Source: Oidiodendron maius Zn
Taxonomy: Eukaryota > Ascomycota > Leotiomycetes > Myxotrichaceae
Length of the DNA: 64,000 bases
NCBI GenBank assembly: GCA_000827325.1
Contig: KN832880.1
Location: forward strand, 538,803 to 602,802
Direction: 5' to 3'
Shown one piece after another: positions 1-36,061 of the stretch. A program made the translations under genes and the position numbers. The notes under the pieces are model-generated. The model was not told the DNA's origin. It made no database searches and worked only from the letters and a program-made list of their open reading frames with translations. Within the stretch, counting starts at the first letter, position 1. Every line of letters starts with the position of its first letter.

Positions 1-17
1 GCTAACCACTTCTCCAG

Positions 18-1096
18 GCGCTTTACGATCTTGCAGCACTTCACACTGTCGAATACTTTGACATTGTGAATCTCGTTCCGTTAGTTGGAACTATCTCCTC
101 TCTTGAGCTCGCGTCCAAGGCGAGAGTTTCATCGCAACGATTGGTCTCGACTCTGCGGTACCTTATCCACCGCCGCATCTTTGCTGAGCCAATCCCTGGG
201 CGGTTCGCGCACTCACCAATGTCGCTCTTATTGCGGCGTCCAGACTGTCACGGCTGGGTCAGTCACTTTGTCCTAGAAGGGACTAAGTGCATTTCGGCGA
301 TGCGCATGCAATACGACCGATTCGGGGGAGAGGACATGGACTCTTTTCACAGTACGGTTAATGTCGCCCATGAGAACTACATTGATCCGCCAATGATGAT
401 CCAGGCATCTGGAGAGGAGCAGGCGGCTAAGTTCAGCCAAGCTATGAGATGGTTTTCGGCATTCGGCGCAGTTCATGATCAACACCTCGTGGATGGCTTT
501 CCATGGGAGGAGTTTGGCGGCGCCACCGTGGTGGATGCGGCCGGTGGGAACGGACATTTCAGCTTCGCTTTGGCTCGGAAATATCCCCAGCTGGGACCTT
601 TCATCATCCAAGATCTGGCTGATCAGATTACAGTCGCAGAGCGGCCGGTTGATCTTGCTGGAAGGGTCGAGTTTCAGGAATTCGATCTTTTTCAAAAGAA
701 TCCTGTCTTGGCAGACCTGTATCTCTTGAGATTTATCCTGCACGACTTTGACGACAATTCCTGCGTGCAGATACTTCGTAACCTAGTATTGGCCATGAAT
801 GATGGAGGGAGCATCGTTGTGCTCGAGGGAGTTCTCGCTGCCGACCAAGGCAGGAGCAGTGCCGATCGTCTCCTAGGGTCAGACATTCCTTTTTTGGCAG
901 CAGGAGAAACACTTCACTAACCGTGTCTAATAGAGCACTCAACATGTCAATGATGACGGATTTGAACGGCGCAGAAAGGTCACTTGAGGATTGGGTAAAA
1001 CTCTTCACACGAGCAGACCCACGTCTAGAACTCCACCGCGTGGTGTCACCCCCTAGAAGTATGCTTTCGCTCATGGAGCTTCGATTCAAGATATAA
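18..1096 (+). CDS. SAM-dependent O-methyltransferase, 5' end cut by window edge
   Basis: Class I O-methyltransferase of the fungal secondary-metabolite (sterigmatocystin OMT-like) type; it would transfer a methyl group from SAM to a hydroxyl. The window starts inside an intron whose branch site (CTAAC, 2-6) and acceptor AG (16-17) are visible; the exon opens at 18 in phase 0 with the winged-helix dimerisation region. A second intron is inferred at 878-933 (branch CTAAC, acceptor TAG), restoring the frame to a stop at 1094-1096. The SAM-binding motif VVDAAGGNGHFSFALA lies near 530-580, and the catalytic-His motif LHDFDD near 739-756. The C-terminal pattern (ERSLEDWVKLF, then a hydrophobic end) fits the family. 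It is the outermost gene of the putative peptide cluster; membership is inference. Confidence 0.85.
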
Positions 1097-3152
1097 TTTT
1101 TGTCTTGATTTTAATAGTACCGTAGTCAGATACTTAATTATACTGCCATTACAAAGTAGGGATGAGGCGCTATCAACCACTTCTTTTATGCCGTATGTCA
1201 AAAGAGTGTGAGAGAGGTAAGTTCACCGCATTAAATCTCTCATTTGCCATCGAAGATAGCTCTGTTGAATGGATCGGGAATACCTTTAAGCCGGAACCAA
1301 ACTTAAACGTGAGCTGCCGTCACTATCCTACTCGTTCGACATGTATAACACGAACTTGACCGTCTCTGCATAGTGCTTGAAAATCGAATAAATTTAGCAA
1401 AGATATTTTTGTGGCCGCCTATATTAGAAACACTCCGTTTTGGCATTTTAAAACTTCATAAATATATACGGATAATGAATGCACTCCGTGGAATGCCTTA
1501 CATGGTATTTCAGATCATGGTTGCCACGAAGGTGCCTGAGCTATCGTTGGCGGCGTAGCGTTATAAATGTTCAGGCTGAGGAAGGTTCAATTGCAGAATA
1601 ACCCTTTGGTCTGGTTCAAGGGCCAGTCCACATAGACAACCCGCCATAGAACTGAAGTGCGTCACGAGGACAGTGAATATTGCATTTTGAGCCATCGAGG
1701 GGCTTATCACCCTTGATCGCAGTACCACAGAAGCACTCACCACGAAAACATTCAGATATCAGTTTATATGCTTGATATACGTAAAGATGGAACCCATATC
1801 TTCCTAATTCTATGCCTGACAAGTGATATTCAACAGAGAAGCGCCTGTCAGCACAAAGCTGAGGTTAATTCTGAAGACTTAACCCAAGACGTGGCCCCGA
1901 CAACACTCGCTCAGTAACGCTATCAGAGTAGCAGCTAAGGCAACTGGGTGACTGCCAACAGATTCAGGAACGGGCTTTAAAGGTAAGTATTCAGGTTAGC
2001 AGGCTGTGTTTTCTTTCCAGGGATGCTTATCATTACAGACCAAATCCCACTGCTTTGCAAGGTATTTTTTGCATTGGTCGATTTTCTACGATTTTTAAAT
2101 CCCCTAGAAAGAATCAAACGCCACTGTTGCCATACTCTTCCGGAAGAACCTGTGTAATAATAAAACGCCCATGATGGAGAATGTCGCTTGAGGAATGATG
2201 CACTGTCACCCCGACTTCCGATTTGTAGTCTAACACATATATGACGCCAAAACTCTGAAGCAAAGTATCTCCAACAGACGTAACTCAACAAGATTAACTA
2301 TTCATATTTGTACGAAAACAAATTACAACGAGCAATAAAAAGTATAGATGCACATCAACCAATTCTCATCATATATGTCATCATTCTACCTCTACCCATT
2401 ATGTTATATATTTAGTTATACTACAGAACTATTTGATATTCAAGTTTCTACGCCATATTGGAGCAGGACAACATATACCTTGGCTACCAAGAAGAAACCA
2501 ATGGTTTACGGAGTTAACAAATCGCGCTTACCTTCTTCGTTTCTGATGTTACTCTGAACGAGAATATGGCGTACGGAGGAAATGGATTATTTCCTATATT
2601 GGAATGTAAAAGCTTTCCGGCCGTAGATGAGTATGAACTACTCTCGTAATGTTTGCAAAGAGACTAATTTTCGGAGGTCGTAGCGCAATAAATATGGAGA
2701 TAACCTAATATGGCTCATCTGCATTAAAATTGTGTCGTATATTAAGAGGTTTTAAATCGCTTTTATATCTTTGAAAAGTATGGAAGTGAATCTATACAGA
2801 CGATGCGATTCGAGATCCTGAGGGCCGCAACTCTCAAACAAGGTTCATGCATAGTTCGGCTACAGGCACTGTCAACACAGGCATGTAGAAATAAGCGGGA
2901 CATCGGACCGAAGTCTGTTGGTTTAGGCAGCAGGCGAGAGATGCTATTAATTAATTTGAGCTGCTATTAAAGAAATCCTACAGTTAGACTTCCCCTAACT
3001 TACGTGTACTACTACGTGGCACCCTCGATTTTTAGGCTACTGATTATTTGATCGAGCCTTATTATTACTTGATTAATCTGGAACATCTTCCCGTAAGAAA
3101 CCCACTTTCGGCTTTGAACGTACAGTATTCTAAGACTTTGATAAACGCCATC
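1097..3152. other. Intergenic, AT-rich, with gene relics
   Basis: About 2 kb between the methyltransferase and the aminopeptidase. Apart from the WSC-like remnant listed separately I see no supported gene. Short open stretches at 1162-1359, 1373-1558 and 1977-2291 have no recognisable domain. The last few hundred bases must hold the aminopeptidase promoter. Confidence 0.6.
1561..1822 (-). pseudogene. WSC-domain-like remnant
   Basis: Read on the minus strand, a 68-residue open stretch contains a Cys pattern like a WSC carbohydrate-binding domain: SECFRGECFCGTAIKGD, then SKCNIHC and a YGG where intact domains have CGG. There is no signal peptide, no start context and no continuation; the frame breaks directly after the YGG. 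The neighbouring frame carries on with similar base composition. I read it as a decayed fragment of a WSC-containing protein; the assignment rests on Cys spacing only. Confidence 0.4.
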
Positions 3153-5946
3153 ATGCGTGAGCAATATAATCCCTTCGTTACAGAGTCAAATCTAGAAGGC
3201 ACTGACGGACGGCTGCCGACAAACGTAAAACCAACTCATTACGATGTACGACTGGAGCCTGACTTGGAGAGTGCATCGTTCAAGGGCTCGGCCACTATTC
3301 ATCTCGATGTTCTCAAAAAGACCACTTTCATATTGCTGAATGCAGTAGAGCTCGACATACTCACCACGGAGGTTGTCGATACTTCAGGAAGTGTCACCAA
3401 AATCCCGATAGTTTACTATAACGAAGAACAGCAAACTGTGATGGTGCCACTGTATGAGCCAATACCAGCAGATTCCAGGATTCTACTGACCCTAATCTTC
3501 AATGGACGTTTGAATGATACCAAAACAAATGCCGGCTTTAATAGGAGTTCGTACAAAGGATTTGATGGCAAGTCGAAGTGGGTCTGCTCAACACAGTGTC
3601 AGCCGACTGGCGCCCGCCAGATATTTCCATGTGTAGATGAGCCGGCACTGAAGGCGACGTTTTCAGCTACCATGGTTGTAGATCAAGGCCTTACTTGCCT
3701 GAGCAATATGGATATTGTTTCAGAGGAACTAAACGAAGTCAGCAAGAAGATAGTTATCTTCAGTAAGACTCCACCAATGTCTTCGTACCTTATTGCCTTC
3801 ATTGTAGGAGAGCTCAATTATATCGAATCCAACAATTTTAGGATTCCAATCAGAATATATGCAACGCCAGATGAAGATATAAATAAAGCAACTTTTGCCC
3901 TCGACGTTGCAGCTCGAGCAATGACATCTCATGAAGAGACATTTGGTTTGCCCTACCCGCTACCCAAGCTTGATATGATAGCTATTCCCGGTCATACTGG
4001 GGCAATGGAAAATTGGGGCTGTGTCATATACGCTTATAGGTCTCTGATTTGGGACAAATTTGACATTCCAGCCTCAGATGCAGAGTCAATGGCCAAGACT
4101 GTGATACACGAACTTGCACATCAATGGTTCGGCAATATTGTTACAATGGCATGGTGGGATTCTCTATGGCTAAACGAATCTTTTGCCGACTGGGCTTCGT
4201 ACAATGCTATGACTCACATGTTTCCAGACTGGGATGCGTGGTCTGGGTTTGTGGCGGGCCGTCCAAGAGCAGGCTTGAATGCATACCAGGCTGCACTGAC
4301 TCTGGATTCCAATCGTGGCAGCCATCCTATCGAGGCTCCTGTTAGCACACCTGAACAAATATCTCAGATATTTGATGCTATTACTTATGCAAAAGGCTGC
4401 TCTATTCTTCGGATGATATCGGAATATCTAGGCGTGGATGTGTTTATTGAGGGTGTACGACTCTATCTCCGGATGCATGCATTTGGAAGCTCGACGACAA
4501 ATGATCTGTGGAAGACTTTGAGCACTGTCAGTGGCCAGGATGTTCAAAAGATCATGTCGATTTGGACAGAGAAAGTTGGGTACCCTGTTCTTTCAATTAC
4601 CGAAGATGAAACATCAGACGAAATCAAGATCTCACAGCATCGATATCTTCGGTCTGGTAAGATGCACCCGGATGAGGATCAAGTGCTTTATCCTGTATAT
4701 TTGAAGATGAAGTCCCTGGATGGAGTTGACTTAGAAGCACAACTATTGGATCGCGAAGGCAAATTCCCAGTCGATCTCAAGTTCTACAAACTTAATGGGG
4801 ATCAGACGGGATTGTATAGAGTTTCATATCCGCTATCTCGCTGGAAGAAATTGGGTGAGCAACTATCATCCGACCTTCTATCCCCAGATGACCGTGTAGG
4901 TTTGATATCCGACTTCTCTGCCGTGGTAACATCTGGCCAAAACTCCAACGTTCGAACCTCCGATCTCCTCAGCTTCCTACAAAAATTCCAAAGCGAAAGC
5001 AATTATTTCGCCTGGCGACAGATTCTTGTTTGCCTCCAGGACATCCGTAAGGCATGGATGTTTGAAGATACCGAGACCCAGCTTGCGCTGTCGACCTTTC
5101 AAACTCAGCTCATGACTCCAATTCTAAATCAGCTGGGTAAGGAGCTATGGAATCTCAAACCGAGTGACAGCCACAGGAATCAGAATTTCAAGAGGCTTTT
5201 GTTCTCCAACGCTGCTGATAACGCTTCCATAAAGGCGGCTTCTCTGTACCTCTTCAACAGACTTGTGAATGGTGATCACAAGCCATTGAATCCTAACATT
5301 CGGAGGGCCATTTTTGACGCTGTGCTCTCGGACGAGAATGCCTCTTCCACCCAGGTGAATGCCCTTAGTAAAAGTCCATTAAAATCCACAACATGCTCAC
5401 TATTTATTATATAGTACACCGCCATTCTCTCCATTTCCCGGACATCGAAGAGTGGGCCGACCAGAGCAGATGCCGTCGCGTCACTTGGCAACGCTCGCTC
5501 TCTCTCACTAATCAAGAAAACCATAACCCTCGCCAGCAGCGCCGATATTCAAAGCAGCAACGACCGCATGGTCATTTTCGAGTCACTTTGCAATCATTCT
5601 GCTGGCATGACAGAGCTTTGGAAATGGATGAAGACGAACTGGGACAAGTTTGCTAATGAATCTGCGGCCTTCCTGGGCTGGGGGGCGATCGTAACCTGCA
5701 CTTCTAATTTTACTACATATGACCAGTTACGTGAGGTAGAGAATTTTTTCATGGGCAAAGACACTACAGTAAGTCACTTCAGGAGGTGAGATTTAAGATA
5801 AACGGACTGACCACAGATAGAAATTCAATAAACTTCTTGACCAGAGTATAGATGAGATTCGAGGGAAGGCTGCCTGGATAGAGAGAGATCGTGAGGATGT
5901 GAGAAATTGGCTGAAGCTTCATGGATATTATGTGGAGAATGTATAG
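3153..5946 (+). CDS. M1-family zinc aminopeptidase (puromycin-sensitive/Aap1-Ape2 type)
   Basis: Removes N-terminal residues from peptides. Exons 3153-5354, 5415-5768 and 5821-5946 give 893 residues, usual for the family. The ATG at 3153 is chosen because the protein then begins shortly before the family N-terminus (LPTNVKPTHYDVRLEPDL). The substrate motif GAMEN is at 283-287, the zinc motif HELAH at 319-323 and the third ligand Glu in NESFAD at 342, i.e. HExxH-18-E intact. Intron 1 is 60 bases, contains an in-frame TAG and ends with TGCTCAC..TATAG; intron 2 starts GTAAGT. The last exon encodes the typical ERAP1_C end (WIERDREDV). No signal peptide is visible, so a cytosolic enzyme is expected. 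It ends 520 bases from the 3' end of the convergent peptide precursor; a trimming role there is inference. Confidence 0.93.
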
Positions 5947-6465
5947 AAGTTCCGATGTGCTTTGGGAGTCAATATATAAGCTAGTTGGGTATAATTAAGG
6001 GTGCAACGAACGACGTACCTTCTGAGACATCGGGAAGCGTAAAAGGGAGGCTTCTAGCGACTTGCACACTGCTCGGCATCCTTCGCTCTCTTATATTCGA
6101 AATATCAGCTTATTTAATTTACTTACGGCACTACACCGTTTCCAGACATTACCCAGCTTCTAGATATTCGATGTGTTGACCAAAGATTGAAACTTGAATT
6201 TCTACCAAGCTAGCTAATGAGCGTGATGGTAATATTAACCGAAACAAGCTACGGTACCAATAGTGCAGACCAATACTGTCAGTCACTAATAATACGTCCG
6301 TCAAACTGAACTCAACTAAGAAGTACGCGATTGTTATGTCTAACGTGACTGCTTATTCCTGGCCCACATTCTACGTCGTAAGAACCTCTTGCCCATTAAC
6401 GTAATAGGACGAAAAAATCGGACTCCATGCAGAACCCCTCAGTCGTCGCTATCTTCGATGGCTTG
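5947..6465. other. Convergent intergenic region
   Basis: Lies between the 3' ends of the aminopeptidase and the precursor gene. Nothing recognised; it should hold both polyadenylation regions. Confidence 0.6.
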
Positions 6466-7077
6466 TCAATCAAAGTTCAACCCATATGTCTCATCCTTGT
6501 CAGCACGTTTATCAAAGTTGAGGCCGTATGTCTCATCCTCATCAGCACGCTTGTTAAAGTTTAACCCGTATGTCTCATCTTTATCAGCGCGCTTGTCAAA
6601 GTTGAGGCCATAAGTGTCATCACTGTCGGCGCGCTTGTCAAAGTTGAGGCCATAAGTATCATCACTGTCGGCGCGCTTGTCAAAGTTTAACCCATATGTA
6701 TCGTCATTGTCAGCACGCTTGTCAAAGTTGAGGCCATATGTGTCGTCACTCTCTGCGCGCTTGTCAAAATTGAGACCATATGCCTCATCCTTCTCGGCAC
6801 GCTTGTCAAAGTTAAGTCCATATGTCTCATCGCTGTCGGCGCGCTTATCAAAGTTGAGACCATATGTTTCGTCACTGTCAGCGCGCTTATCGAAGTTCAA
6901 CCCGTAGGTATCATCTTTATCGACGGGAGCGCGGATGCCACGGGCTTTTCGAAATTTGTGTTAGATACAATGTGTTAAGAGCCTCAGGCGCTCTGAAAGA
7001 AACTCCATACCTGGCTTTGGCAGAGCGGCGGCAATCGCTCCAGTAGCGAAAAGACATAGGACGCTGGTGAGCTTCAT
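6466..7077 (-). CDS. Repeat-containing secreted RiPP precursor (dikaritin-like)
   Basis: Exon 1 is 7011-7077 and exon 2 is 6466-6944; the 66-base intron runs from GTATGG to a CTAAC branch and AAAG acceptor. The 181-residue product starts with a clear signal peptide (MKLTSVLCLFATGAIAAALP), then RGIRAPV, then eleven 14-residue repeats with consensus (D/E)xD(D/E)TYGLNFDKRA; the last stops after YGLNFD. Kex2 cleavage after each KR would release about ten near-identical peptides of the form ADSDETYGLNFDKR. This is the architecture of UstA, PhomA and related precursors: secretory leader, acidic spacer, Tyr-containing core, KR. The hexapeptide YGLNFD resembles the phomopsin core in length, Tyr start and Asp end. 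Three UstYa-like genes lie immediately upstream of it. The modified product is unknown. Confidence 0.9.
6469..6921 (-). repeat. Eleven tandem 42-base units encoding the core peptide repeats
   Basis: Ten full 42-base units plus a final 33-base unit. YGLNF is encoded in all eleven. Substitutions cluster in the spacer (DK, DS, EK, ES, DN, DE before D/E). Unit 4 has Ala instead of Thr before Tyr; unit 9 has Asn instead of Asp before KR. Synonymous differences among units show they are not a recent slippage product. Confidence 0.92.
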
Positions 7078-8720
7078 AATGTGCGTGATTGTGGTCAAAC
7101 GTAAAGTTAACAGACTGAAAATTCACAGGAAAGATGCTTGAATATGATCTATTGTTGTAAAACATCATTATATAGCATCTCAATATTTAATCCTAGACAA
7201 TAGAGATCTTCTTATTGGACCCATCTCTGTTCTATGCACTAGTCTATGCTCTCAGACGGCCAAGAGGGACGGTGAGCAATTGTCACGCAATCTTTCTTTC
7301 CCTAAAGCATTCGTAAATTTTGCTGCATACCGCAGCATTAGCCTTGATAGCTGGCTTGGTAAGTGGCACATTAAGCAGGAAAGTGCATTCACGGTTAATT
7401 ACACGGCCATTCTCCAACCGTTTAGGGTCATATGGTCACTTACTAAAGAGTCAGTCCTCCTTAGCATTTATAAGATGCATTGCATTGGGAAACTGTACGA
7501 ATGCAAGACCTAGCCCTTATAAGAAATCTTGCGGCCTTATTATTCTGTCGCCATTACAAAGAGTCACCCCGCTATCTTGTTTATGTTTGCACATACATAC
7601 AGAGATCAGTGGTAGATGCTAGTATCCTTGATTATCTAAAGAAATACGACGTAAGCCTACCAGTTAGCGTTTTCTAGATATACTGCCCTATTAGTCTAGG
7701 TTAAGCAGTTCAGGAATTCCGCCACCAAATAGCTATTGCCTATACAGGTAGATATATACTCTTCTAGAAGAGATACGATGCTAATACATAAAAAGTTATA
7801 AGAATTTTATCGAAAATAAGGCCAGTCTGTATAAAAGCTATGTCTGCTTAGAGCATGTCTTCCTGTATTTGAACAAGCGCCCGCTCCCAGTTGGACCAAA
7901 ATATTAAAAATCTGTTAAGTATTAATATGCCTATAGAAGTAAATTTTTCGGGTGAGACAGCAAACAAACCAGTAGTGGTATATTTGACTACTTCTGTGCA
8001 AGTATCTTCTTACGATGCAGGTGATAATACTGCCAAGAGCTATTAGTTCCCTAGTAAGCGGCCTTATGCCATATTTCGCCGAGCCCGAGTGTCTATAGAT
8101 GCTTTCTCCACACTATGCCATCTTATGGCAAACTTCGATACGATTTCAAGGTAAGCATGATGCAATATTGTGCGTGCATAAGCGCCCATCTCCAACATGC
8201 TGTAAGTTGCCCGGTACCCCACTGCCGGACGGGCATTAAAATAGGCTTTCGGCTTGCCCGGGTGGCCATGTGATACTAAAAAGATTCGCGGTAACAATTC
8301 GTTCTCCTGAAATGGGCCATGCACCCCTGGGAAGAAGTCCCTGTTACAGGATTAGAGCCGGGCGCGGCACCCTGGTGTGCCTGCGAGATGAAGTGGTGGT
8401 ATCCCAGCCGTGGAAGGGCTCGGATGCTACCGCATGTGGCTGTTGCTGGGACCGCATAGGATCGCGATCCTAGTTGTTTTCCTGACAATGCTTCTTGATG
8501 ATCCATATGGAATCGAGCAGCGCGACAGCAGGAGTCTCTTTGCCGGGGATCCCACTTTCGTTCCCTTGGCTATGACCCTTCCCAGTTCGCTTCATCTCTA
8601 CGGCGCAATTTATCACGCTTTAGTTGTTCCACTGGTCATCTAGATTTTATTGGGACATCTTAGATCATTACACGAAGATCAACGCTTGTATTCAATATTT
8701 TCTCTACGGAAACTGATAGC
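7078..8720. other. Intergenic between precursor and first UstYa-like gene
   Basis: About 1.6 kb separating the divergent precursor and oxidase genes; it should contain both promoters. Most is AT-rich with no supported gene. A GC-richer patch at about 8190-8640 holds open stretches on both strands (8064-8324 and 8276-8506 minus, 8410-8643 plus) but no domain I recognise; it may be a gene relic. Confidence 0.5.
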
Positions 8721-9781
8721 ATGGCATCTGATGCTGAAGACGGCAAGCCTTATGAAAAGGAGCATCTGTACACGTCTGGTACAGGTTCTGAATTAATTTC
8801 GGAGGAAGATGTAGACATAGATATTCCATATTCCCATAAACGACGATGGCGGTTTCCCCGGTGGGCTCTTCCTTATATTCTTCATGCGACCATTCTCATC
8901 CTCTTTTTGGTTATTTTCGTCTTCACCAACACTATAGGACTAAAGCGATGCGATATGCGTCGTGCATATTGTAGGTTCTTAGATACCGCGTGTCTCTGGC
9001 CATTGCATTCTAAGTCAGCTAATCATATACGGCAGCACCCGCTCAGAATGCTGTCGTGACCGATATACACAGCTTCAGTGTGAGCCCCCCAGATGCGAAT
9101 GCGAAGTATGTGGGAAGACCTAGCCCTGCACTGGATCGAGCTTGGGCAGACCTCTTGCAATGTAAGTATATGTTCTCAAATTGCGTCTCTCTGGAGTGCT
9201 GAACAACGTAATTTTAATATAGACTCTAATATCCGCTTCACGGATGAGGAGTTTCATACCATACACCCCGACAGAATAGATAACGCGATCAAGCTCCCTG
9301 ATGGAGGCTACTTCGGGTCGCTCTTCGTCTACCATGAATTACACTGTCTTGTAAGCGTAAATTGGAGTGGAAACACTAGATCGAGCTGTTATTTAGTTGC
9401 TATTACTGATGGGCTTAGAAACACATATACAGATTTGTCTATAAAGAGCACTACCTACCGCCATTGAACGAAACGGAAAGTGATGACTTGCGCATACACA
9501 TAGGACATTGCATCGATACTATCCGACAGGCTGTCTTGTGCCATGCGGATATAACGCCGTTTACAATGACCTGGCCTAAGACATACGCCGTTCCGGGGGC
9601 CAATACTACAAGTCCTCATACTTGTGTCAGTTGGGACGCAGTCAATAGCTGGGCAAGGTCACGATCAATAGACAATATTTTCGAACCGGGATATCTCAAA
9701 CATCCAGTCTTTGGGGACGTATATGGCAAAGATTTTGAAGACAGTATTAATAGGAAGACTGGGTTTACCCACAGTAACTGA
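8721..9781 (+). CDS. UstYa-like (DUF3328) peptide oxidase, copy 1
   Basis: Exons 8721-8970, 9036-9161, 9223-9350 and 9419-9781 give 288 residues. After an acidic, cytosolic N-terminus (about 1-50) there is one membrane helix (ALPYILHATILILFLVIFVF). The luminal part contains RRAYSPAQNAV, SPALDRAWADLL and the two diagnostic motifs: HELHC at 163-167 and HIGHC at 195-199. UstYa proteins are oxidases that cyclise or hydroxylate dikaritin cores; the His/Cys motifs are thought to bind metal. All four exon joins preserve frame; introns are 61-68 bases, with GTAGGT/GTAAGT/GTAAGC donors. It is the first of three such genes in a row on the plus strand and the closest to the precursor. Confidence 0.9.
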
Positions 9782-10538
9782 GGGCATCAGAATTGATCAA
9801 TATCTTCCGGGAAGAATATCACACCCATTGAAGACAGTACGTAGCTCTCTGGTGTTGAAGGTCAGATAGGGGCCCCAGAAAAACTATTTAAGCGGAAGAT
9901 ACGATTGGTCTCGTGTACTATTGTCTTGGTATGATGGTCTACCTGGGAATATAGTAAACCTTATTATTTTCCATCACACCACAGATGAGAGGTAGTTAGA
10001 TGTCAAATCGGGATATTTTTAAACCTATTATTTACCTAGATCCTATGGCTTTTTCCAAAGAAACCGAACTTGCTTCAACCTTCGGAGTACTAAACCATGT
10101 GGTACAAGTAATCTTTGTAGCTGGAGATTGTTAATTTCGATCACAGAATCTTCAGGGCGGGATACCAGCCATTCTTGGAAATCCTACAGTGCTTTGTAGA
10201 TCTTTGACAAATAGGGAAATCTTTCCCAGAGTCTCAGATTCTGATGTTAGACTGCGTAACCATGACGGCATGCATAATGCCGAAACTTACTACTAGACCG
10301 CCATTTTAGCGCACGAGGACTTACATGTGTTAGTCGGTCAGATGTAACCCTCCACAGGCTATTATTGGTTCGATCAATTGACCAATATGTGGCCAGGAAT
10401 AATGGTTCATCTTTACTTCAACTAGTGGCTTAGCTAGTAGAATTCCGCTTTTTTTTGGGCTAGCTTTTACATGCGGCACCTGTTGCTTTCTCACCCTTAC
10501 AACTCTAAGAACTCAGGACTTTCTCATGATTCTTAACA
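9782..10538. other. Intergenic between UstYa-like genes 1 and 2
   Basis: About 760 bases with no supported gene; presumably terminator of copy 1 and promoter of copy 2. Confidence 0.6.
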
Positions 10539-11466
10539 ATGTTTGGGAAGATAGCTGAGGCTCTCTGGCTGCCATGGTACAACAAACTTCCAGATGACGA
10601 AAATCAAGCCGATAGTGAAAAGTCTGGAGAGTATGAACAGCCACCTTCTCGTTGGAGATTATTGAGGTACCGTCCGTCATTTGTGTTCATCTCACTATCG
10701 TGCTTTGGGCTCCTCTTCGCTATTACCGCCATCTTCATGATGTTTCAGCGCTCTAGGACTTCGGCCTTGTTTTATCCTACCTGTGAGTGCTAAATATGCT
10801 AAGTAACCGCGGTCATTGCTAGCTGACGCTCATTGCTACAGTACAAACTACTCTCATAACCTTTGAAGAGCATCCGATTTTCATGTCAGCTCCTTCTCCA
10901 GAGAGTGACGCTGCTTGGAACAGCCTAATACCAAGTAAGGAGAGTCTCTGTCCTGTCCTTAGCCCTTGCTGACATTCAACCAGGCGGAAGAGGATTTGTT
11001 CTGGTTGAAGATCCCGAAAAATATCATCTCAAACCGGGCTTACCAACAGAAGTCGGGCCGGATCGATACAGCGTTTCTATGTTTCACCAATTGCATTGTT
11101 TGGTCCGTCCTGCCCCCAGCTACCTACATGTCGTAATTCTGATCCGGAATGAAGGGAATACTACGAGAGAGTTACTACTCTGCTCTCCATTCTACTAAAC
11201 CGAAGATATTCGGGGAGGATAAACTTTCAGGGGAATTATTAAAACACGCTCATAGCGAACATGTGGGTCATTGCTTCGATTATCTCCGCCAGGCAATTAT
11301 GTGCGCCGCAGACCTGAGTTTAGAATGGGCTGGGCAGACTGCTTCTGGTACCCCTCTTGCAACAGTAGATGGCTGGGGTATTCCACATAAATGTCGCAGT
11401 TGGGACCAGGCGTTTGAGTGGACATTGGAACATAGAGCACCCCACAATTATACTGGTATAGCTTAG
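10539..11466 (+). CDS. UstYa-like (DUF3328) peptide oxidase, copy 2
   Basis: Exons 10539-10782, 10842-10934, 10984-11102 and 11155-11466 give 255 residues. A single membrane helix (FVFISLSCFGLLFAITAIF) follows a charged N-terminus. The family signature SDAAWNSLIPSGGRGF is followed by DPEKYHLKPGLPTE, then HQLHC (147-151) and HVGHC (188-192) with the usual DYLRQAIMCAAD. This is closer to the common DUF3328 consensus than copies 1 and 3. Introns are 49-59 bases. Expected membrane anchored in the secretory pathway, facing the lumen where the precursor is processed. Which bond it makes cannot be told from sequence. Confidence 0.9.
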
Positions 11467-12013
11467 CACCTTCAGCTGATGCTCTGAGACACGGGATTGC
11501 CAATGTAGCTACACAAGATAGAAAGCTAACTGCCACAATTGGCCGGCCAATATACGCTCACCTGAGATTTGATTAGTCGTCTGCTGATCAATGAGAAGAT
11601 ACTCATTATATTCTCCTTGGCCGTGACATTACATATAGCGATTTGTTTTATGCATAAGAAGCCAATGTAACAGAGAGTATTAATGACTATTTCGGTTTAG
11701 TGAGAAAGACGTCTAACAAATAATATTAATTATTAGCACTAATTTTACCTTCCTATTAGGAAGATACTTGTGTATAAGTAGCCAGAAATATACTGCATTC
11801 ATGCATGTAAGAAGAGCAAGGATAAAAGCAAAGTGGGATCACGGGCAAGAGTACGTGGCACAGTGCATAGCATACGCTACGGCAGAAAGGGTAGAAGCAC
11901 GGAAGAATACAGTCAGGAGCTGCAAAGAGATTCCGGCCCTCAGGTCAATGATTTTATTGCCCAGTTTCTCTCAATATCTGATAGATTCTTCATGATTTTT
12001 AGTCTCACCAACG
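11467..12013. other. Intergenic between UstYa-like genes 2 and 3
   Basis: About 550 AT-rich bases. Two overlapping open stretches at 11768-12054 have no recognisable domain and precede the copy 3 start; I treat them as chance. Confidence 0.55.
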
Positions 12014-12907
12014 ATGAAGCCAAATTCATCAGTCTATCATTCTCTTCCTGCTGATGATTCAGAGAGCTCTCAAGGAATCGCAGAGGCTAGCAATCCACAT
12101 CCTTCCCTAAAACGCTGTGGCTGGAATACTGTCCGGAGCATTCTACTAGTTCAATTAATTAATGCCATTGTTATATCTTTAATTCTATGGCGCTTGCTCC
12201 CACTGCGCTACCAACCTTCAACGGGTGATAAATGTAAGATTATAATACGGTTATAAATATTATAGAAAATTGACCTAGAATAAGATGATCGGCTCAACGA
12301 TTATAGTACTGTTATGACATTTAAAAGCAATCCAGCAACAGTTATATCCTCAAAGGAGAATGACTATAACTGGGACAAACCTCTTCATCCAGGTGTGTGT
12401 TATTCACAATACTAATACATTTTACTAACAGTATTAGATGGAATGGGAGTTGTTAAACTTTCTGATGAATGGGTGGCCGAGAAGCACTTTCGCCTCTCCG
12501 CGCCAACCCCACCAGAGTATAACTATCCTTCTACGAGCATCTATCAAGTTTCAGTCTTTCATCAACTACATTGTGTGGTAGGTATATACATATTGACTAG
12601 ATCCTAGCAAGTTGCAATTAACTCTCTTTAGAACTGGCTTCGTGATCGAATTAACCATCCGAATGACCCATACTACCCTCCAGGCTCACGAAAACACAAC
12701 CACACCCTGCACTGCCTTGATTTTATTAGGCAAAGTCTAATGTGCAATGCAGATACTAATCTTGCAATAACACACGACTATGTCTTCTTTGGGTCTGGAA
12801 CAGACCATAAATGCAAAGATTTTGACTTAATTAGGGAGTGGGCAATAGAAAACCATTTCCTTGAGTTCATAGAGTATCGAACCAAACCAAGTTCCAATAG
12901 CACATGA
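12014..12907 (+). CDS. UstYa-like (DUF3328) peptide oxidase, copy 3
   Basis: Exons 12014-12233, 12285-12392, 12432-12577 and 12632-12907 give 249 residues. One membrane helix (SILLVQLINAIVISLIL) follows the N-terminal tail. The luminal part has GMGVVKLSDEW, then HQLHC (153-157) and HTLHC (182-186) with DFIRQSLMCNADTN. It is the most divergent of the three: the usual SPxxDAAW block before the first motif is not recognisable. The second intron is only 39 bases; it is accepted because it is the solution that keeps frame and ends TTTACTAACAG. Paired with copies 1 and 2, it suggests sequential oxidations of one core peptide. Confidence 0.85.
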
Positions 12908-13259: not shown

Positions 13260-14403
13260 TTATGACTTGGATATATCTCCTTGCATGGTGACAATCGGCT
13301 TCTCGCCCACAAGTCTAGCTTCGGCGTTCAACGCTTCGATCTCTGCGTCTACGTAAGGTATCCCATTACGCAGTCTCTCTTCATGTCTCAATTGCTCAAT
13401 CTCTCCTGGAAAATAAATCCTATCGACTCCATGCATCTTCTCCGAGTCCACTACCTGTTGATATAAGTAATCCATGCGTTCCTTGAAGTCTTCTAAGCTC
13501 ATGAACAGGTCAGGCCGTATCGCGACGAGAAAGTGCCCGACATCCGCTGGCTTCGACGGATCATAGGGACCAGTAACTTGTCCGGCAAAGGCAGAGCCTG
13601 AAAGGACGCCGGAAAATACGTCCATCATTACAGCAAGAGCTGACCCCTTTGGTCCTCCCATTGGCAACATCACTCCCTCTAGCGCCTTGGCAGGATCGTC
13701 CGTTGGTTTGCCCTCCGCATCCAGTGCCCAATCTATCGGTATTTTCTCTCCACGCCGTTTGGCTTTGTAAATCTTGCCCCGAGCTGCAATTGACGGGGCC
13801 ATATCTAAGATAAACGGCGGTTTCTTTCCGGCCGGGGCCCCACAAGCAATTGGGGAGACTCCCATAAGCTTTGACCGTCCTCCCCACACCGGAAGCGCAG
13901 GAGAAGAGTTTGTAAATACCAAACTCATCATTCCCGAATCGAGGGCTTCCTGCACGAGCCATGCTGACATCCCAAAATGATTTGAGTGTTTGACAGATAC
14001 CATGCCAATTCCGAATTCTTTTGCCATGTCAATGGCCGCTGTGATGCCTAGGTGGCCTGCTAGAAACCCAAAGCCATTGTGTCCATGCACCTGGTGGAAT
14101 TATTAGCTGCACGATATGGTTGGCGAGGCTTTGGCTTACTTGAGCAACAACGGGGGTGATTTTGGTTAGAGAAGGTGTAGCTGTGGGATCAAGAACACCT
14201 TGTCGTACCCTCTCCATGTACGAAGGGATACGGTTTATGCCATGAGTATCAACGCCTCGCAAATCGGCCAGCACGAGACACTTGGCGATGATCGACGCGT
14301 TTCCTTTCGACACGCCATTTCCTGTGAGGACGCCCACCACAAAGGATTCAGCATTAGAGGCAGTGACTATCGTATATTTGGTATCGCTCTGGGAGGGCTC
14401 CAT
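13260..14403 (-). CDS. Malate/L-lactate dehydrogenase (Ldh2) family oxidoreductase
   Basis: Exon 1 is 14140-14403 and exon 2 is 13260-14090, joined over a 49-base intron (GTAAGC..CCAG); 364 residues. The family reduces or oxidises 2-oxo/2-hydroxy acids or imino acids with NAD(P). Characteristic blocks are LADLRGVDTHGINRIPSYMERV near the N-terminus with the conserved His, HGHNGFGFLAG, VSVKHSNHFGMSAWL, PIACGAPAG and PMGGPKGSALAVMMDV. No signal peptide, so likely cytosolic. Position next to the UstYa genes makes a tailoring role conceivable, but this family is also common in primary metabolism, so cluster membership is open. Confidence 0.9.
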
Positions 14404-15636: not shown

Positions 15637-18600
15637 TCAACCAGCATACTTCATGAAGCAGGCCCCATGCACCACGAACGCTGCCCAGTGATAGGGCAGC
15701 CTTGTTTGCGGCGTCCTCTTCATGCGTATCACAGCCTTCTGTAGTGCGGCAGCGAGATCAACCACGTCAGTCTCAGCCATACTATCTCCTTCTTTCTGTC
15801 TTACCGGTTTCTCCGATCTCGCCATTTTGTACCCCTTAGTGCGGAAAATTTCAGCGTGAAAGTGTTCCGCAAACATTCTCGCAGTTGCACTCGCGATCGG
15901 CCACATCGCTCCTGTCACTGAGGCTGCCCCAGCACAGAGGAGCGCAGTGACAAGACCGAGAGGCTCATCGCCAGCTTCGATTTTCTGCGAGGTGGACCCA
16001 CATGCCATGAGCGAGATGTGCGGTGCCTGGAGCCTGAGCGAGAAGATGTCACGCACTGTTACAAGGACTGGCTCTGAGTGGGATAGAGAGATAGAAGCGT
16101 TGGGGTGAGTTGAAAGGACTAATGCCTGATCGGTAATGACTTCCGGCTTTGTCAGACAATGACCGTGGAAGTAAATGTAGTCGGCGGCTTGCCAGCAACG
16201 CTCGAGGTTTGGGCGGCTCACCTCCCGGCCGATGAGAGATGACCCGGCTATTTGGGTAGCAAGGTCTGAAGTAGCTTCGTATAATATATCTTGCTCGTCC
16301 GCATCGTTCTCTACACCCTCATTATCTTCATATACTGCAATAAAGACTGAGGTGGACGGTTTAGACGCTTGTTTAGTTGCCGCCCTCTCACAGCACTGGA
16401 TAAACGCGGTCATGTTTGAGCAGTACACAACCGGGTTGCGTTCGATCAAGGCCACCGTCCTCCGTCGACCATCCAGCATTTGCTGCGGGATGTGAAGCGC
16501 ATGCAATGGTACTGCATCAATGGGAACTGCTGGCGAGAGTACCAGAGTAGTCTCTGGCTCCGTGGCATCTTCGAGCCATTCAATCAAGCAGTCCATCTTC
16601 CTGAGTGCTTGATTTGGGTGGTTTTCGCCGCGATCGAGAAATTCGGCTCTCCCTTGTTCGGAGTAGAAGTACTTGGCAAGCCACGACTGGATAAATTGTA
16701 GCGAGGCATTGACTCGCCGGATGGTAGGCTCTTCGCCAGGCTTGAAGATCAGGATGAAGACTTCTTGACCTTTGACATACCAATCGACGAAGACAAGTTT
16801 ACGCGCTCCTGATTCTGAGAAAGCCTGTGAACACCTATCAGAGAGCTGCTGAGTGGTTACTGCAGCTCCATGCCGGAGATCCAGCAAATTTTTCAAGCTT
16901 TCGTGAGCCATCATTTGCGTTTCAAGGTCTCTTAGTTCTACCCTGATATCAAAACGGTCGAGATTTGAGGACGATGTGATCTGTAAGGCGAGAAGCTTTT
17001 CCTTCTCATATAGCTCCTTCGCTTTCTCGTCCGCAGCTATAGCAGTCAAAAGTGAATCTGGCACAATACAACCCAGCCCCAGTGTATCAGACAGACTTCT
17101 AGCCTTTGCCTTTTGTACCCAGTGTCACGCCTGCACAGAATCTCTGTCGAGCACACAGACCTGGAAAACAAGGCAATAAATATCACGAACGTGCCTGTCC
17201 TGCGCCAGGCGCTGCTTGTCCTGGACCGCAGTCAGAGCTGACGATATTGAAATCTCTTTCCGCTTGTCATCAAAGCCTTGCTCGGCAGCGATAAGTGATT
17301 CAAATACTTCTTTGGAAGGTTTCCAGTTGACAATCCTCGCCTCATATCGCACTAGTGCAAGCCAGTACTTTGATTCTGTAACCTTGGTAGGGTTCCTTAA
17401 AGCTTCCCAGCCTGGAATGCAAGCGGTAAAAGCATCCTCGGCGGCTGCGAGAGCCTGGACGCAACGAGTGTCACCAACTTGGAGATATTTTTGGAAGCAG
17501 ATACGCCAAGTAAGACCCAGCTGCATCCTGCTAGTTATCAAGGCAAAAGTCAGAGTTTTGCCGTGGCCAACGAAAAATGCTTGTAGAGCCTGGTTCAACA
17601 AATTGATTGCTTCCTCTTCCATTGTGCAATCCTGCCGTTGAGAACCAAGTGAAATGAGGTAGGTAGCTTGCTGCTGCATGATGTTGGCCTTAATCAAAGA
17701 GGAACCGGGAAACGTATTCGAAGATATAATGGAATTTACTCGGTCTAATTGCGAGTGTATGCAATGGAGCCTGTCCTCAAGGGGTATCGTCCTGGTGGTG
17801 TGGTAAAAGCAAAGCATAATCTCCAGTTTTGAGATCGCTTCAGCATACAACTTATTTGAGAGGTCTCGTTCCACGTACTTATCGCAAAGTGACTGGGCAG
17901 TTGCATAGTCACTATGTTCTCGCTTCGAAATTAGCAGCATCTCGCATTTGAGTTTGTGTAAGCGCCCCATTGAGCTTGTTGCCTCGATACACTGGTCCCA
18001 CTGCTCTTCGCATACCAATGCCCAGCGGTTTGCCTCTTCAGCATTTTCTTGTTCCACGTAGATATCGCTGAGTATACTAGCCGCTTGTCCTTGGACCATC
18101 GGTAGCCGATACTGAGCAATCTCATGGTAAATTTCTAAAATAGTATTCTTGAGAAGGTCAGTGTGGCCAGATCTCAAATGGTACTGCCAAACAAGGTTGA
18201 TATAGCTCGTGATCCACAACAGAGTTGTCCCAGTCTCTTCCGAGCGCTTTTTCAGCTCCTGCTCTAAGCATCGCTGGAGGTCAAAATTCTGTGCTTTTCG
18301 TGCAACGTCTAGACACTTGTGCAATGCCATCTTCAAGCCGTTTGGAAAGTCAAGCTCACTATACCGATCAATATATTCCAGAAACTCGTCGTACTTGGAC
18401 TTGTTCCCGTCCATGATAGTCTCATAACACACATTGAAATCAATATCAAGTGCCCCATGGGCATGCTCCTTGGCTAAGATGATATAGGCCTGTTGGCGCA
18501 ACGCTTCGCGCCGCTGCTTGTGCTCGGTGGGTTTAAGCATACTTGCTAGCTCTTCCTGAGCCTTAGCTACGGTTAGTGGCATAACGCCCTCCTCTTCTAG

Positions 18601-19231
18601 CAGCTCTTCAAGGCTGCGGAGTCTTAATTGCTCATCTTGTATGGAGTATATGTACCACAGCGCATTATCAAAATATTTAGACCTCAGGAGCAAGCTCATA
18701 AGATGACATATTTCGGCATTTAGCACGTCAAGCTGACTTTGGTATTCAACAGGCCTGAAGGTGGCGCATAATGCGATGAGCCTATAGTAGAAAAGTCTGA
18801 TGGTGAGCTGCATACATGGATTAGCGCGGGTTAGGAGTACATCTGGACGGGCTACGCACGGCATGATGGCTAGTTGGGTAAGCTTTCAGAAACGACGCTG
18901 CGTCGCTGTATATACCGCCCGCTTCTGGAAGGCTTGTCCAAATTTTGCCTGAAACGATGGCGCCTGTAAAGCATTGCATCATGCCCATGGCCCATCGAGC
19001 ATGGTCGTCTCCATCCTTGATATTTTGCACGTCAACGGTAAGCAAACTATGAGCACGGTTTAGATAGCCCTGGGTGATATAGATCTCGGCAAGCTGGATG
19101 AGCAGTTCAGCCGAGTCTTCGGTCCTGGCGCGAAGCGATTGTATCTCCTCTGCTGCTTGGATATAGTACCCCTGTTTGCGTAGTTGTCTTGCGTGAGCAA
19201 TGCTCAAGCCACCACTGTGCAGCTGTGACAT
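15637..19231 (-). CDS. TPR-CHAT caspase-like protease gene with in-frame TGA
   Basis: Exon 1 is 18860-19231 and exon 2 is 15637-18807 (52-base intron, GTGCGT..GCAG); 1180 codons. Residues about 10-640 are helical TPR-like repeats. The block WVQKAKARSLSDTLGLG links to a C-terminal CHAT domain with the caspase-like dyad: His in YIYFHGHC (about 1005) and Cys in LMACGS (1060). CHAT proteases are cell-death or regulatory proteases (separase/caspase clan). Codon 685 (17125-17127) is TGA between Ala and HWVQKAKARSLSD; relatives as I recall them have Trp there, so one G-to-A change would explain it. The rest of the frame is open, so the damage is recent, or the codon is read through, or there is a sequencing error. 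The start is fixed by an upstream in-frame TAG. Confidence 0.82.
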
Positions 19232-33700: not shown

Positions 33701-36061
33701 GCGCACTGACCCGCTTTCTCTCAAGCTTTGGTCTTCAGCGTCAGGCCCCTGCTCTCCCAGCAGACCAGTGACAGTCCTGTGCAAATTGTGAGTGGAGACC
33801 TTATATACGCGAGCGGGACTCCATATTCTTTTCCATAATCAGCGATAATAGCGGAGAGAACTGTTCTTACCTGCGAGCCGCCGGCTTGTGAGCAATATAC
33901 ATTAGCTTCCAATGGTCCTTAGCCTTGTACTTAGTGCTGCCTTCGTGGCCTAGTCTGATGGCAAACTCCTGGAGAAGCTTGGGCAAGACCATAAGAATAT
34001 CGCCAGCTGATATCTCTCCTAGATGCGTACGGACTAAAGCCATCAGCCAGTTCGCAAACTCCTCGGTGAATTCGTCTTCACTGCTCTGGAGACTTCCTGC
34101 GTCCGAGTATTCGTCTAAATTCTCATCAAAGTTGTCGTCCGTGGGTTGCCGGACGTCAGAGGACTCTGATTGAGGTTCCAGTTGAGTCGGACAAGGGAGC
34201 TCGGCAACAGGATCCAAAGTGGCGGCGACCATTGTTTCATTGGATGTGGTCTCTTTGTCACGCGAGGTCGAATAGTATGCAGAGTCAGAGACTGTATCTG
34301 CTTTGATATGAGAATAAGTGGCGCTGTAATCGTCACTGTCTAGCTTTTTGTCTGCTTTAGTATTAGAATAAGTGCTGCTGTAATCGTCACTGTCTAGTTT
34401 AGCGGTTTTAGTAGTGCTATGGTCGTGAGACGGCGATCCCGAGATGCCCCTAATATCTGCAGCTGCATTTTTGTTACGCGGGCTAGAGTAATATCCAGAG
34501 CTAGCGGCTGTGTCTGCTTTAATATAAGAGTGAGTGTTGCTGTTATCGTCACTGTCGTGTTTGGCGGTCAGGATGGTGGGACGGTCATGAGGCAGCGACC
34601 AGTAAATGCCCCCAGCATTTTCAATTGTATTTTTGTTACGCGGGATCGAGTAATATGCAGAGTCAGCGACTGTGTTTGCTTCAGTACGAGAATGAGTGCT
34701 GCTGTAATTGTCACTGTCTATTTTGGCGGTCAAGGTAGCAGGACGGTCGTGGGTCGGCGACCATGAGATGCCCCCTTTATCTGGAATTGTATTATAGCCT
34801 CTATACCCCTCGTGATATTTATTTACCAGTCTTCTCATTTCTACTGCGATACTGAGTGGAGTTAACTACAGAAGGTAAAGCAAAGAAGAATACTATGCTA
34901 CTTACGATTTTCGAAGCTTCAGACCATCGGGATACAAGGCACTTGCCTGTATATTGAACTTCCTATTTGTGTCAGTGTTTGAACACTACAATTTATAAAT
35001 CAACGTACATGGCATATAGGGCGAGTCGATCGTCGTAGTCTTCTATAGGGATGGACTTTGGAATATGTGAGTGGTACATGCTAAAGTATTTGCGAGAGAA
35101 TTTGTTCCGTTGTGGTAACCAGTTTCCGAGCTCATCTAAGATTCATTAATAGGAGTAAATAACGCAGAGGTGATATAGATCTCGTACACTCGTTGTGGGC
35201 GTAAAAACTTGCGGGGTCATAGATAATAGAACGATCCGTTTGCACATTAACTGCAGCGTTCCTATGCCACAAATTTCCGTGGACAAGGGAAGGCCTTATT
35301 GACCGTCCGTCGGTCTCCATTGGTCTGAGAAGCCGTGGAATTACCTTTCCTAATATGTGATCCCTGAGAGTTTCTATTTCTTCCCAAGGGCCACCACGTT
35401 CTACATTGAGGTTCAACATGTGCTCGAATTCATTAAGGAAGAACGTTTCCCATGTGTCGGTATATCCATTTTCTTGAGGAAGATCACCATTGTACGTAAC
35501 GATATGAAATCCGAATTTTCCATTTGGGGCTTCGCTCTTTTGGTGCAATTGAGCAAGTTTTGTACAGAATTCAGATGGCTCTGGAAGTTCTTCGGCCAGC
35601 TCGTAGAATTGGCAAATGTAGTAATACGTGTCAGGAATGCTTTTGAAAGCCCCCCAGATAATGGGCCGTGGAGTAAAATCGCCTACAATAGCGTGAATGG
35701 ATGATGTGGATTCAAACTCGCCCTGCAGAGCTCTCATTCCATATTCACCATAGCGCACCTACTCTCAGGAGGACTAGCAATCAGCACATGGAATACAGAG
35801 CAGCAAATTCTCTTAGGATTTCCCGAAATAATATACCTTCATGAAATAAGCTCTTTCCACTCCATCCTTGGCGGTGTCTACCCTGAAAGTCAGGGACCAG
35901 CCTGAGGAGCCATGGAAGGTAACACTCAGGACGGTCCCGAATATGGGGAGTTCTGTGGGATCCAAAATTTAGCATACTACAGATACAATCCCGAAACAAT
36001 ACAAACCTGCCTGAAGTACCTCTGCTGTGATGGCATCAGCGATTTCTGAGGGGATCTGCAT
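30730..36061 (-). CDS. Fusion: fructosamine-kinase-like domain - tandem-repeat linker - orphan fungal domain
   Basis: Nine exons (36007-36061, 35837-35952, 35188-35758, 35009-35135, 34906-34962, 33871-34851, 33097-33776, 32397-33041, 30730-32336) read as one frame of 1612 residues. Residues 1-328 match the fungal fructosamine/ketosamine-3-kinase family (GEFESTSSIHAIVGDF, GKFGFHIVTYNGDLPQ, PSLVHGNLWHRN, DPASFYAHNEYELGNW, EMRRLVNKYHEGYRGY). The catalytic Asp expected in HGDLW is Asn (219), so kinase activity is doubtful. Residues about 331-510 are three 54-residue repeats. The rest is a large fungal family I recognise only as uncharacterised (LIKGFSTMLYPTKVDYADG, NIIGWCR, ISGGRYITAGLTFARG, WLVDGPSSLLHLAHASL, KGWVGFTRAIHAITLFGHGFG). 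The kinase exons join the orphan part in phase at 34851. Two separate transcripts remain possible. Confidence 0.8.
34254..34793 (-). repeat. Three tandem 162-base units in the fusion linker
   Basis: Each unit encodes 54 residues: N-T-I..GGI-W-P-HDRP-LTAK-DSD-Y-S-THS-KADT-SAYYS-PRNK. Unit 3 carries an internal extra 54 bases (repeating LDSDDYS-TYS-KAD). The repeats begin directly after the kinase-like domain ends, so the array appears to have built the junction. Confidence 0.85.

Follow-up and report, generated by a model that had tools for sequence, protein, structure and literature searches.

A 64,000-nucleotide stretch of contig KN832880.1 of the ascomycete Oidiodendron maius Zn (assembly GCA_000827325.1, positions 538,803 to 602,802; hereafter the window, in whose own numbering positions are given unless a contig is named) carries a compact set of genes that we assign, with a probability of roughly 0.85, to a dikaritin-type cluster for a ribosomally synthesised and post-translationally modified peptide (RiPP), in which a Kex2-processed repeat protein (KEP) is paired with UstYa-family enzymes and which is known here from its genes alone. 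The precursor gene stands beside three UstYa (DUF3328) genes, the first of which begins 1.6 kb from the precursor start. A sequence-only reading had earlier described a secreted precursor with eleven KR-spaced, nearly invariant YGLNFD cores next to three UstYa-like genes with paired HxxHC motifs, and both parts of that description were borne out, secretion being predicted from hydropathy.

The repeat array (6466 to 6915, minus strand) comprises eleven 14-residue units, each built from a six-residue acidic spacer, a core YGLNF[DN] and the dipeptide KR. Tandem Repeats Finder returned the array at 6470-6915 with a period of 42 and 10.6 copies, together with a period of 126. The core reads YGLNFD in 10 of the 11 units and YGLNFN in unit 9, successive units being exactly 14 residues apart, and the spacer conforms to A[DE]xD[DE][TA] in all units except the first, which has VDKDDT. 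Ten KR separators are present; only the last core is without one and is followed by a stop codon instead. A single frame of the window contains YGLNFD 10 times. In the 45.9-Mb genome, a degenerate DNA pattern coding for YGLNFDK followed by R or S had nine matches, every one within the array, and its reversed control had none. A chance repeat is ruled out by the constant anatomy of the array and by this genome-unique pattern with its empty control. No second copy of the precursor was found in the genome by protein search or by the degenerate pattern search.

Each core column uses two to four codons (four for Gly and four for Leu), and the amino acid changes at only 1 of 66 positions in the core. 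In a comparison of every pair among the eleven units, the proportions of synonymous (pS) and nonsynonymous (pN) differences in the core were 0.860 and 0.047, respectively (pN/pS = 0.054), compared to a pN of 0 (ratio 0.000) for KR and a pN/pS of 0.248 for the spacer; gene conversion between units could complicate these values, though hardly the contrast between core and spacer. A ratio of 0.054 at a pS of 0.86 indicates that the YGLNFD peptide is under purifying selection, and since the peptide and its cutting sites were kept while the DNA drifted, the array is no fresh DNA expansion. The core peptide and the KR sites are maintained by selection within the array.

The precursor gene (6466 to 7077, minus strand) runs from an ATG at 7077 to a stop codon at 6468-6466. 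In the preferred model, two exons (7077-7011 and 6944-6466) encode 181 aa and are separated by a 66-nt intron (7010-6945) with donor GTATGG, a branch-like CTAAC and acceptor AAG, the intron ending in AAAG. Since five of the six in-frame single-intron models hold all eleven cores (the other holds ten) and four of the six hold the hydrophobic N-terminus, the choice of model carries little weight for the peptide. Exon 1 (7011 to 7077, minus strand) encodes a putative signal peptide, MKLTSVLCLFATGAIAA, with a hydropathy of 2.3 over 12 residues. Pfam matches of the precursor to Kre9_KNH and three other families were all below their own cut-offs, leaving 0 stretches, and look like repeat artefacts.

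The three UstYa homologues lie on the plus strand. Y1 (8721 to 9781; exons 8721-8970, 9036-9161, 9223-9350 and 9419-9781) encodes 288 aa with the motifs HELHC and HIGHC, Y2 (10539 to 11466; exons 10539-10782, 10842-10934, 10984-11102 and 11155-11466) encodes 255 aa with HQLHC and HVGHC, and Y3 (12014 to 12907; exons 12014-12233, 12285-12392, 12438-12577 and 12632-12907) encodes 247 aa with HQLHC and HTLHC. All have three introns and are free of internal stops after splicing; the third intron of Y2 has a weak donor, GTCCGT. The introns were placed by hand, and among the in-frame alternatives for Y2 and Y3 we took the splicings that keep the family motif continuous. The three proteins matched the Pfam UstYa family (cut-off 25) with 167 bits (E = 6.4e-49), 124 bits (E = 9.7e-36) and 93 bits (E = 3.9e-26) for Y1, Y2 and Y3, respectively. 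Each contains both HxxHC motifs, the H and C columns of which are invariant in an alignment of seven proteins (Y1-Y3 and four public relatives), and hydropathy reveals one strongly hydrophobic segment near each N-terminus. Y2 and Y3 share only 26% and 21% identity with Y1, which makes three separate reactions plausible. Among 397 candidates, four proteins were related to Y1 at E ≤ 0.001; those bearing species names come from Madurella mycetomatis, Cladorrhinum sp. and Diaporthe amygdali, and are 53-57% identical over 53-60% of Y1. The best-scoring other match in the genome of O. maius is only 35% identical, so that Y1 has no close copy there. A sequence search for a solved structure of a UstYa relative returned none at E ≤ 1.

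From these genes we infer the following route. The precursor would enter the secretory pathway, as its N-terminus suggests, and, as in known KEP processing, Kex2 would cut after KR and a Kex1-type carboxypeptidase would remove the KR; the genome has one match to a Kex2-type P domain. The predicted output is ten 12-mers of the form A[DE]xD[DE][TA]YGLNF[DN], nine of them internal and the tenth C-terminal, plus a first fragment that is longer, in agreement with the earlier estimate of about ten Kex2 peptides per precursor. Y1 to Y3 would then oxidise the YGLNFD core, their HxxHC motifs probably forming the dicopper site through which the UstYa family acts according to a 2025 report. The likeliest reaction would be the formation of an ether between the Tyr1 phenol and the beta-carbon of Leu3 or Phe5, a choice of partner that is a guess, by UstYa alone as in asperipin-2a, and the remaining UstYa proteins may carry out a second oxidation or a desaturation as in phomopsin. 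The product, by analogy, would be a Tyr1-linked macrocycle on YGLNFD bearing one or two further oxidations. Computed [M+H]+ values are 728.325 for linear YGLNFD, 726.309 and 724.294 for the same peptide minus 2H and minus 4H, 611.282 for YGLNF minus 2H, and 1344.523 for an example 12-mer, ADSDETYGLNFD, minus 2H. The acidic six-residue spacer would have to be trimmed, a step for which the adjoining M1 aminopeptidase gene (see below) is a weak candidate.

In the broad sense, a dikaritin is a KEP-derived peptide cyclised by UstYa (PMC10512285), and the corresponding gene features are all present here: tandem cores between Kex2 sites, UstYa neighbours and both HxxHC motifs intact. The original definition comprised five genes, and some functional clusters described since then lack one or more of them (PMC12048977). 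With no tyrosinase match on its contig, the locus falls outside that original definition. For the methyltransferase of the definition there is an O-methyltransferase gene of uncertain membership (1 to 917), and for its transporter or peptidase the adjoining M1 gene and an ABC transporter about 26 kb beyond Y3 are possible counterparts only. The dikaritin label of the sequence-only reading fits the gene features in the broad sense and not in the narrow one.

Several points weigh against our assignment. No tyrosinase match lies on this contig (0 of 9 in the genome), and tyrosinase is required for the cyclisation of ustiloxin and phomopsin (PMC7329392). The S41 peptidase conserved in phomopsin-like clusters (PMC6514808) is not found nearby, the nearest of its three genome matches being about 0.49 Mb away, and the core reads YGL in all eleven units, which is YxL and not the YxI of the ustiloxin/phomopsin subgroup. 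On the side of the gene models, the precursor splice sites were placed by hand with AAG as the acceptor, alternative in-frame splicings exist for the precursor, Y2 and Y3, and the signal peptide of the precursor was called from hydropathy alone. Finally, a protein search restricted to proteins 0.55-1.75 times the length of the precursor found no homologue elsewhere at E ≤ 0.01 among 3,898 candidates. Small repeat genes often remain unannotated.

The known systems put these absences in perspective. Asperipin-2a of Aspergillus flavus is produced from a four-gene set (aprA, aprY, aprT and aprR) with a single UstYa protein and no tyrosinase (PMC6514808); the lack of a tyrosinase is thus no argument against cyclisation. 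That system resembles the present one in its KEP precursor, its hexapeptide-sized core with Tyr and Phe, and its use of UstYa without tyrosinase. It differs in having one UstYa gene instead of three, FYYTGY instead of YGLNFD as the core and a unit of 8 aa instead of 14, while no reductase was recognised here in the pieces scanned with Pfam and the sole transporter scanned, of the ABC type (from 39255 on), is some 26 kb past Y3. The phomopsin cluster of Phomopsis leptostromiformis (phomA and others) shares the 14-aa unit, the Tyr-first core and the presence of several UstYa homologues, five in its case (PMC7329392), three UstYa homologues being reported as essential for cyclisation and desaturation (PMC10512285); the present locus departs from phomopsin in having Leu instead of Ile at core position 3 and in lacking both a tyrosinase match on its contig and a nearby S41 peptidase. 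The ustiloxin B cluster (ustA, ustYa, ustYb, ustQ and others) shares KR-separated Tyr-containing repeats, a signal-like N-terminus and UstYa homologues, whereas here tyrosinase is missing and neither a flavoprotein monooxygenase nor a pyridoxal phosphate-dependent enzyme was recognised in the eight neighbouring genes scanned (10 pieces), a scan that small intron-rich genes may escape. Repeat units measure 14 residues in phomopsin and 13 in ustiloxin, and the EDYXI motif of both kinds of precursor (PMC7329392, PMC6339444) places acidic residues before Tyr, as does the present array. Judged from its genes, the cluster follows an asperipin-like logic and is not an ustiloxin/phomopsin homologue.

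The lack of a tyrosinase match on the contig would also fit a silent or decaying cluster, in which intact-looking genes go unexpressed or want a needed partner, such as that enzyme, and yield no product. We consider this unlikely, as all four genes are open, core and KR are nearly invariant despite synonymous drift, and asperipin-2a arises from its four genes without a tyrosinase. Were the KEP secreted as unmodified, pheromone- or hormone-like 12-mers, with the UstYa genes belonging to a different pathway, the 12-mer would itself be the product and the spacer would need no trimming. However, this linear peptide is very unlikely given the three UstYa genes that start 1.6 kb away: with the 70 exon-level UstYa matches of the genome roughly merged into an assumed 45 genes and placed at random, three such genes within 10 kb on either side have a P of about 1e-6, a value that exaggerates the significance, as UstYa genes occur in clusters. 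A variable spacer next to a constant core also speaks against it, as does the complete absence of Cys from the repeat units (0 of 11), Leotiomycete alpha-pheromone precursors being of a two-Cys type (PMC6339444). Membership in the ustiloxin/phomopsin subgroup, with a Tyr1-to-residue-3 ring and a tyrosinase contributed by another part of the genome, could draw on the phomopsin-like 14-aa unit, on an aliphatic residue two positions after Tyr and on the tyrosinase-domain matches on contigs C17, C6, C4 and C8, but is very unlikely in view of a neighbourhood without tyrosinase, Leu as residue 3 in 11 of 11 units and a precursor that matched nothing in the protein search.

Under the preferred dikaritin-type assignment, one adjoining gene is a possible further member. 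It codes for an M1 aminopeptidase of the puromycin-sensitive type (3153 to 5946, plus strand; PF01433, E = 4.8e-71), with exons at about 3153-5354, 5415-5768 and 5821-5946 (the borders of the first intron are ambiguous), and ends 519 bp from the precursor stop codon. The motifs HELAHQWFGN and GAMENWG are intact. Among the best 120 of 8,000 scored candidates found with the first exon (762 aa) as a query, 17 share 60-94% identity and the next shares 48%; three of the 17 carry species names (Hyaloscypha sp. PMI_1271, Stipitochalara longipes and Hyaloscypha variabilis). The start MREQYNPF agrees with that of 12 of these 17 relatives, which have MR[ED], while the predicted starts of four others are longer and the remaining one begins with MLEV. 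The species names among the relatives point to a probably helotialean host. The genome also encodes a copy on contig C3, to which the M1 of the window, a second paralogue, is 42% identical. A 36-row tree places the window M1 among 20 rows that are separated with 100/100 support from the other 16, which include the C3 copy as a neighbour of Lachnellula willkommii (99/97). This tree has a midpoint root, a long-branch warning and two open forks within the 20-row group. The window M1 would then belong to a second, separate and apparently helotialean clade, and we read the C3 copy as the housekeeping M1.

This M1 has no signal peptide by eye and would for that reason act in the cytosol. As the cluster's own protease for trimming the acidic spacer it is a weak candidate only. 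A dedicated M1 might take off A[DE]xD[DE][TA] one residue at a time and be stopped at Tyr1 by the macrocycle that UstYa has made, a scheme that we put forward as a rather doubtful one. If it were true, it would account for a constant N-terminus despite variable spacers and would provide a maturation protease of the sort that a 2019 review (PMC6514808) calls unknown for the removal of the flanks of ustiloxin. Since a peptidase near a cluster easily seems meaningful after the fact, we treat this gene as no more than a possible member.

Farther to the left, an O-methyltransferase gene (PF00891, E = 5.1e-21; 1 to 917, plus strand) begins upstream of the window and lies 2.2 kb from the M1 gene; its membership in the cluster is uncertain. 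Beyond it are a sedolisin-type peptidase, identified from its pro-kumamolisin domain, a regulator of the Fungal_trans_2 family, an alpha/beta hydrolase and a P450; the P450, some 17 kb outside the window on its upstream side, is unassigned to the pathway. On the right, a two-exon malate/L-lactate dehydrogenase gene (Ldh_2, E = 2.2e-101 and 1.5e-20; 13260 to 14403, minus strand) is the probable border of the cluster and is likewise unassigned. We would place neither the O-methyltransferase, nor the left-flank genes, nor Ldh_2 in the pathway with confidence. The interval 920-3000 is overlapped by 15 frames over 60 aa, of which the Pfam scan covered the methyltransferase frame. In the gaps at 5985-8643 and 11768-11992, nine of ten short frames had either nothing or one sub-threshold Pfam match, and the tenth is the start of Ldh_2. 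Elsewhere in the window, two long adjacent open frames at 15637-18885 (minus strand) together likely encode a large TPR/CHAT-type protein, as judged by eye from the translation, and a tandem repeat at 34349-34793 (period 162, 2.7 copies) lies inside a minus-strand open frame.

The cluster had also been proposed as a candidate new one. YGLNFD is absent from the literature searched, as are YGLNF, LNFDKR and TYGLNF, and the partial string GLNFD occurs there once in each of three papers, whose titles concern unrelated subjects; the supplementary tables of PMC7329392, outside this search, may list the type. In viral contigs no relative of the precursor was confirmed, the two pattern matches being unrelated. 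While the novelty of the core stood in this literature and in the absence of precursor homologues, that of the gene combination did not, as a 2020 survey of 7,878 proteins counts 1,758 KEPs that have DUF3328 genes beside them (PMC7329392). By 2022, the dikaritins reported numbered only five (PMC10512285). The genes make a convincing case for a clean further example of a common and known kind of pathway, with a core that appears new as far as searched.

The same genome is rich in UstYa genes and holds other examples. Kex2-type repeats with unrelated cores were found at 5 of the 17 other UstYa loci scanned (20 regions, in which uninterrupted frames only are detected), and the cluster described here is one of at least six UstYa-linked repeat clusters in its genome. 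Locus L019 encodes a precursor in which KR or RR follows each of twelve MALYDHD cores (6633-7208 in C22:444000-453999, plus strand), L031 encodes five units ending in YNVATYGI (6177-6497 in C13:19500-29499, plus strand), and L037 encodes a precursor whose five TNDYPKYGS[IV]GDFEAVNK units, with the core YPKYGS[IV]GDFEAV, share their frame with a hydrophobic N-terminus (6836-7213 in C14:727500-737499, plus strand). At the end of contig C1, L028 has four identical NVDSVSAAEWDGGGDFAPD units separated by RR, with the repeat core AAEWDGGGDFAPD, and two UstYa genes nearby (6689-7003, minus strand). The repeat protein at L025 (6986-7960 in C4:773000-782999, plus strand) has di-histidine units (HHTEAQIAAKEAAA) that recall the HH types described in PMC7329392.

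With a near-invariant core, three UstYa genes and no tyrosinase, the YGLNFD cluster is a compact case and offers a clean system for asking which UstYa protein makes which bond. It also lends itself to asking whether a linked aminopeptidase trims the spacer, and its product, if bioactive, would add a new scaffold.

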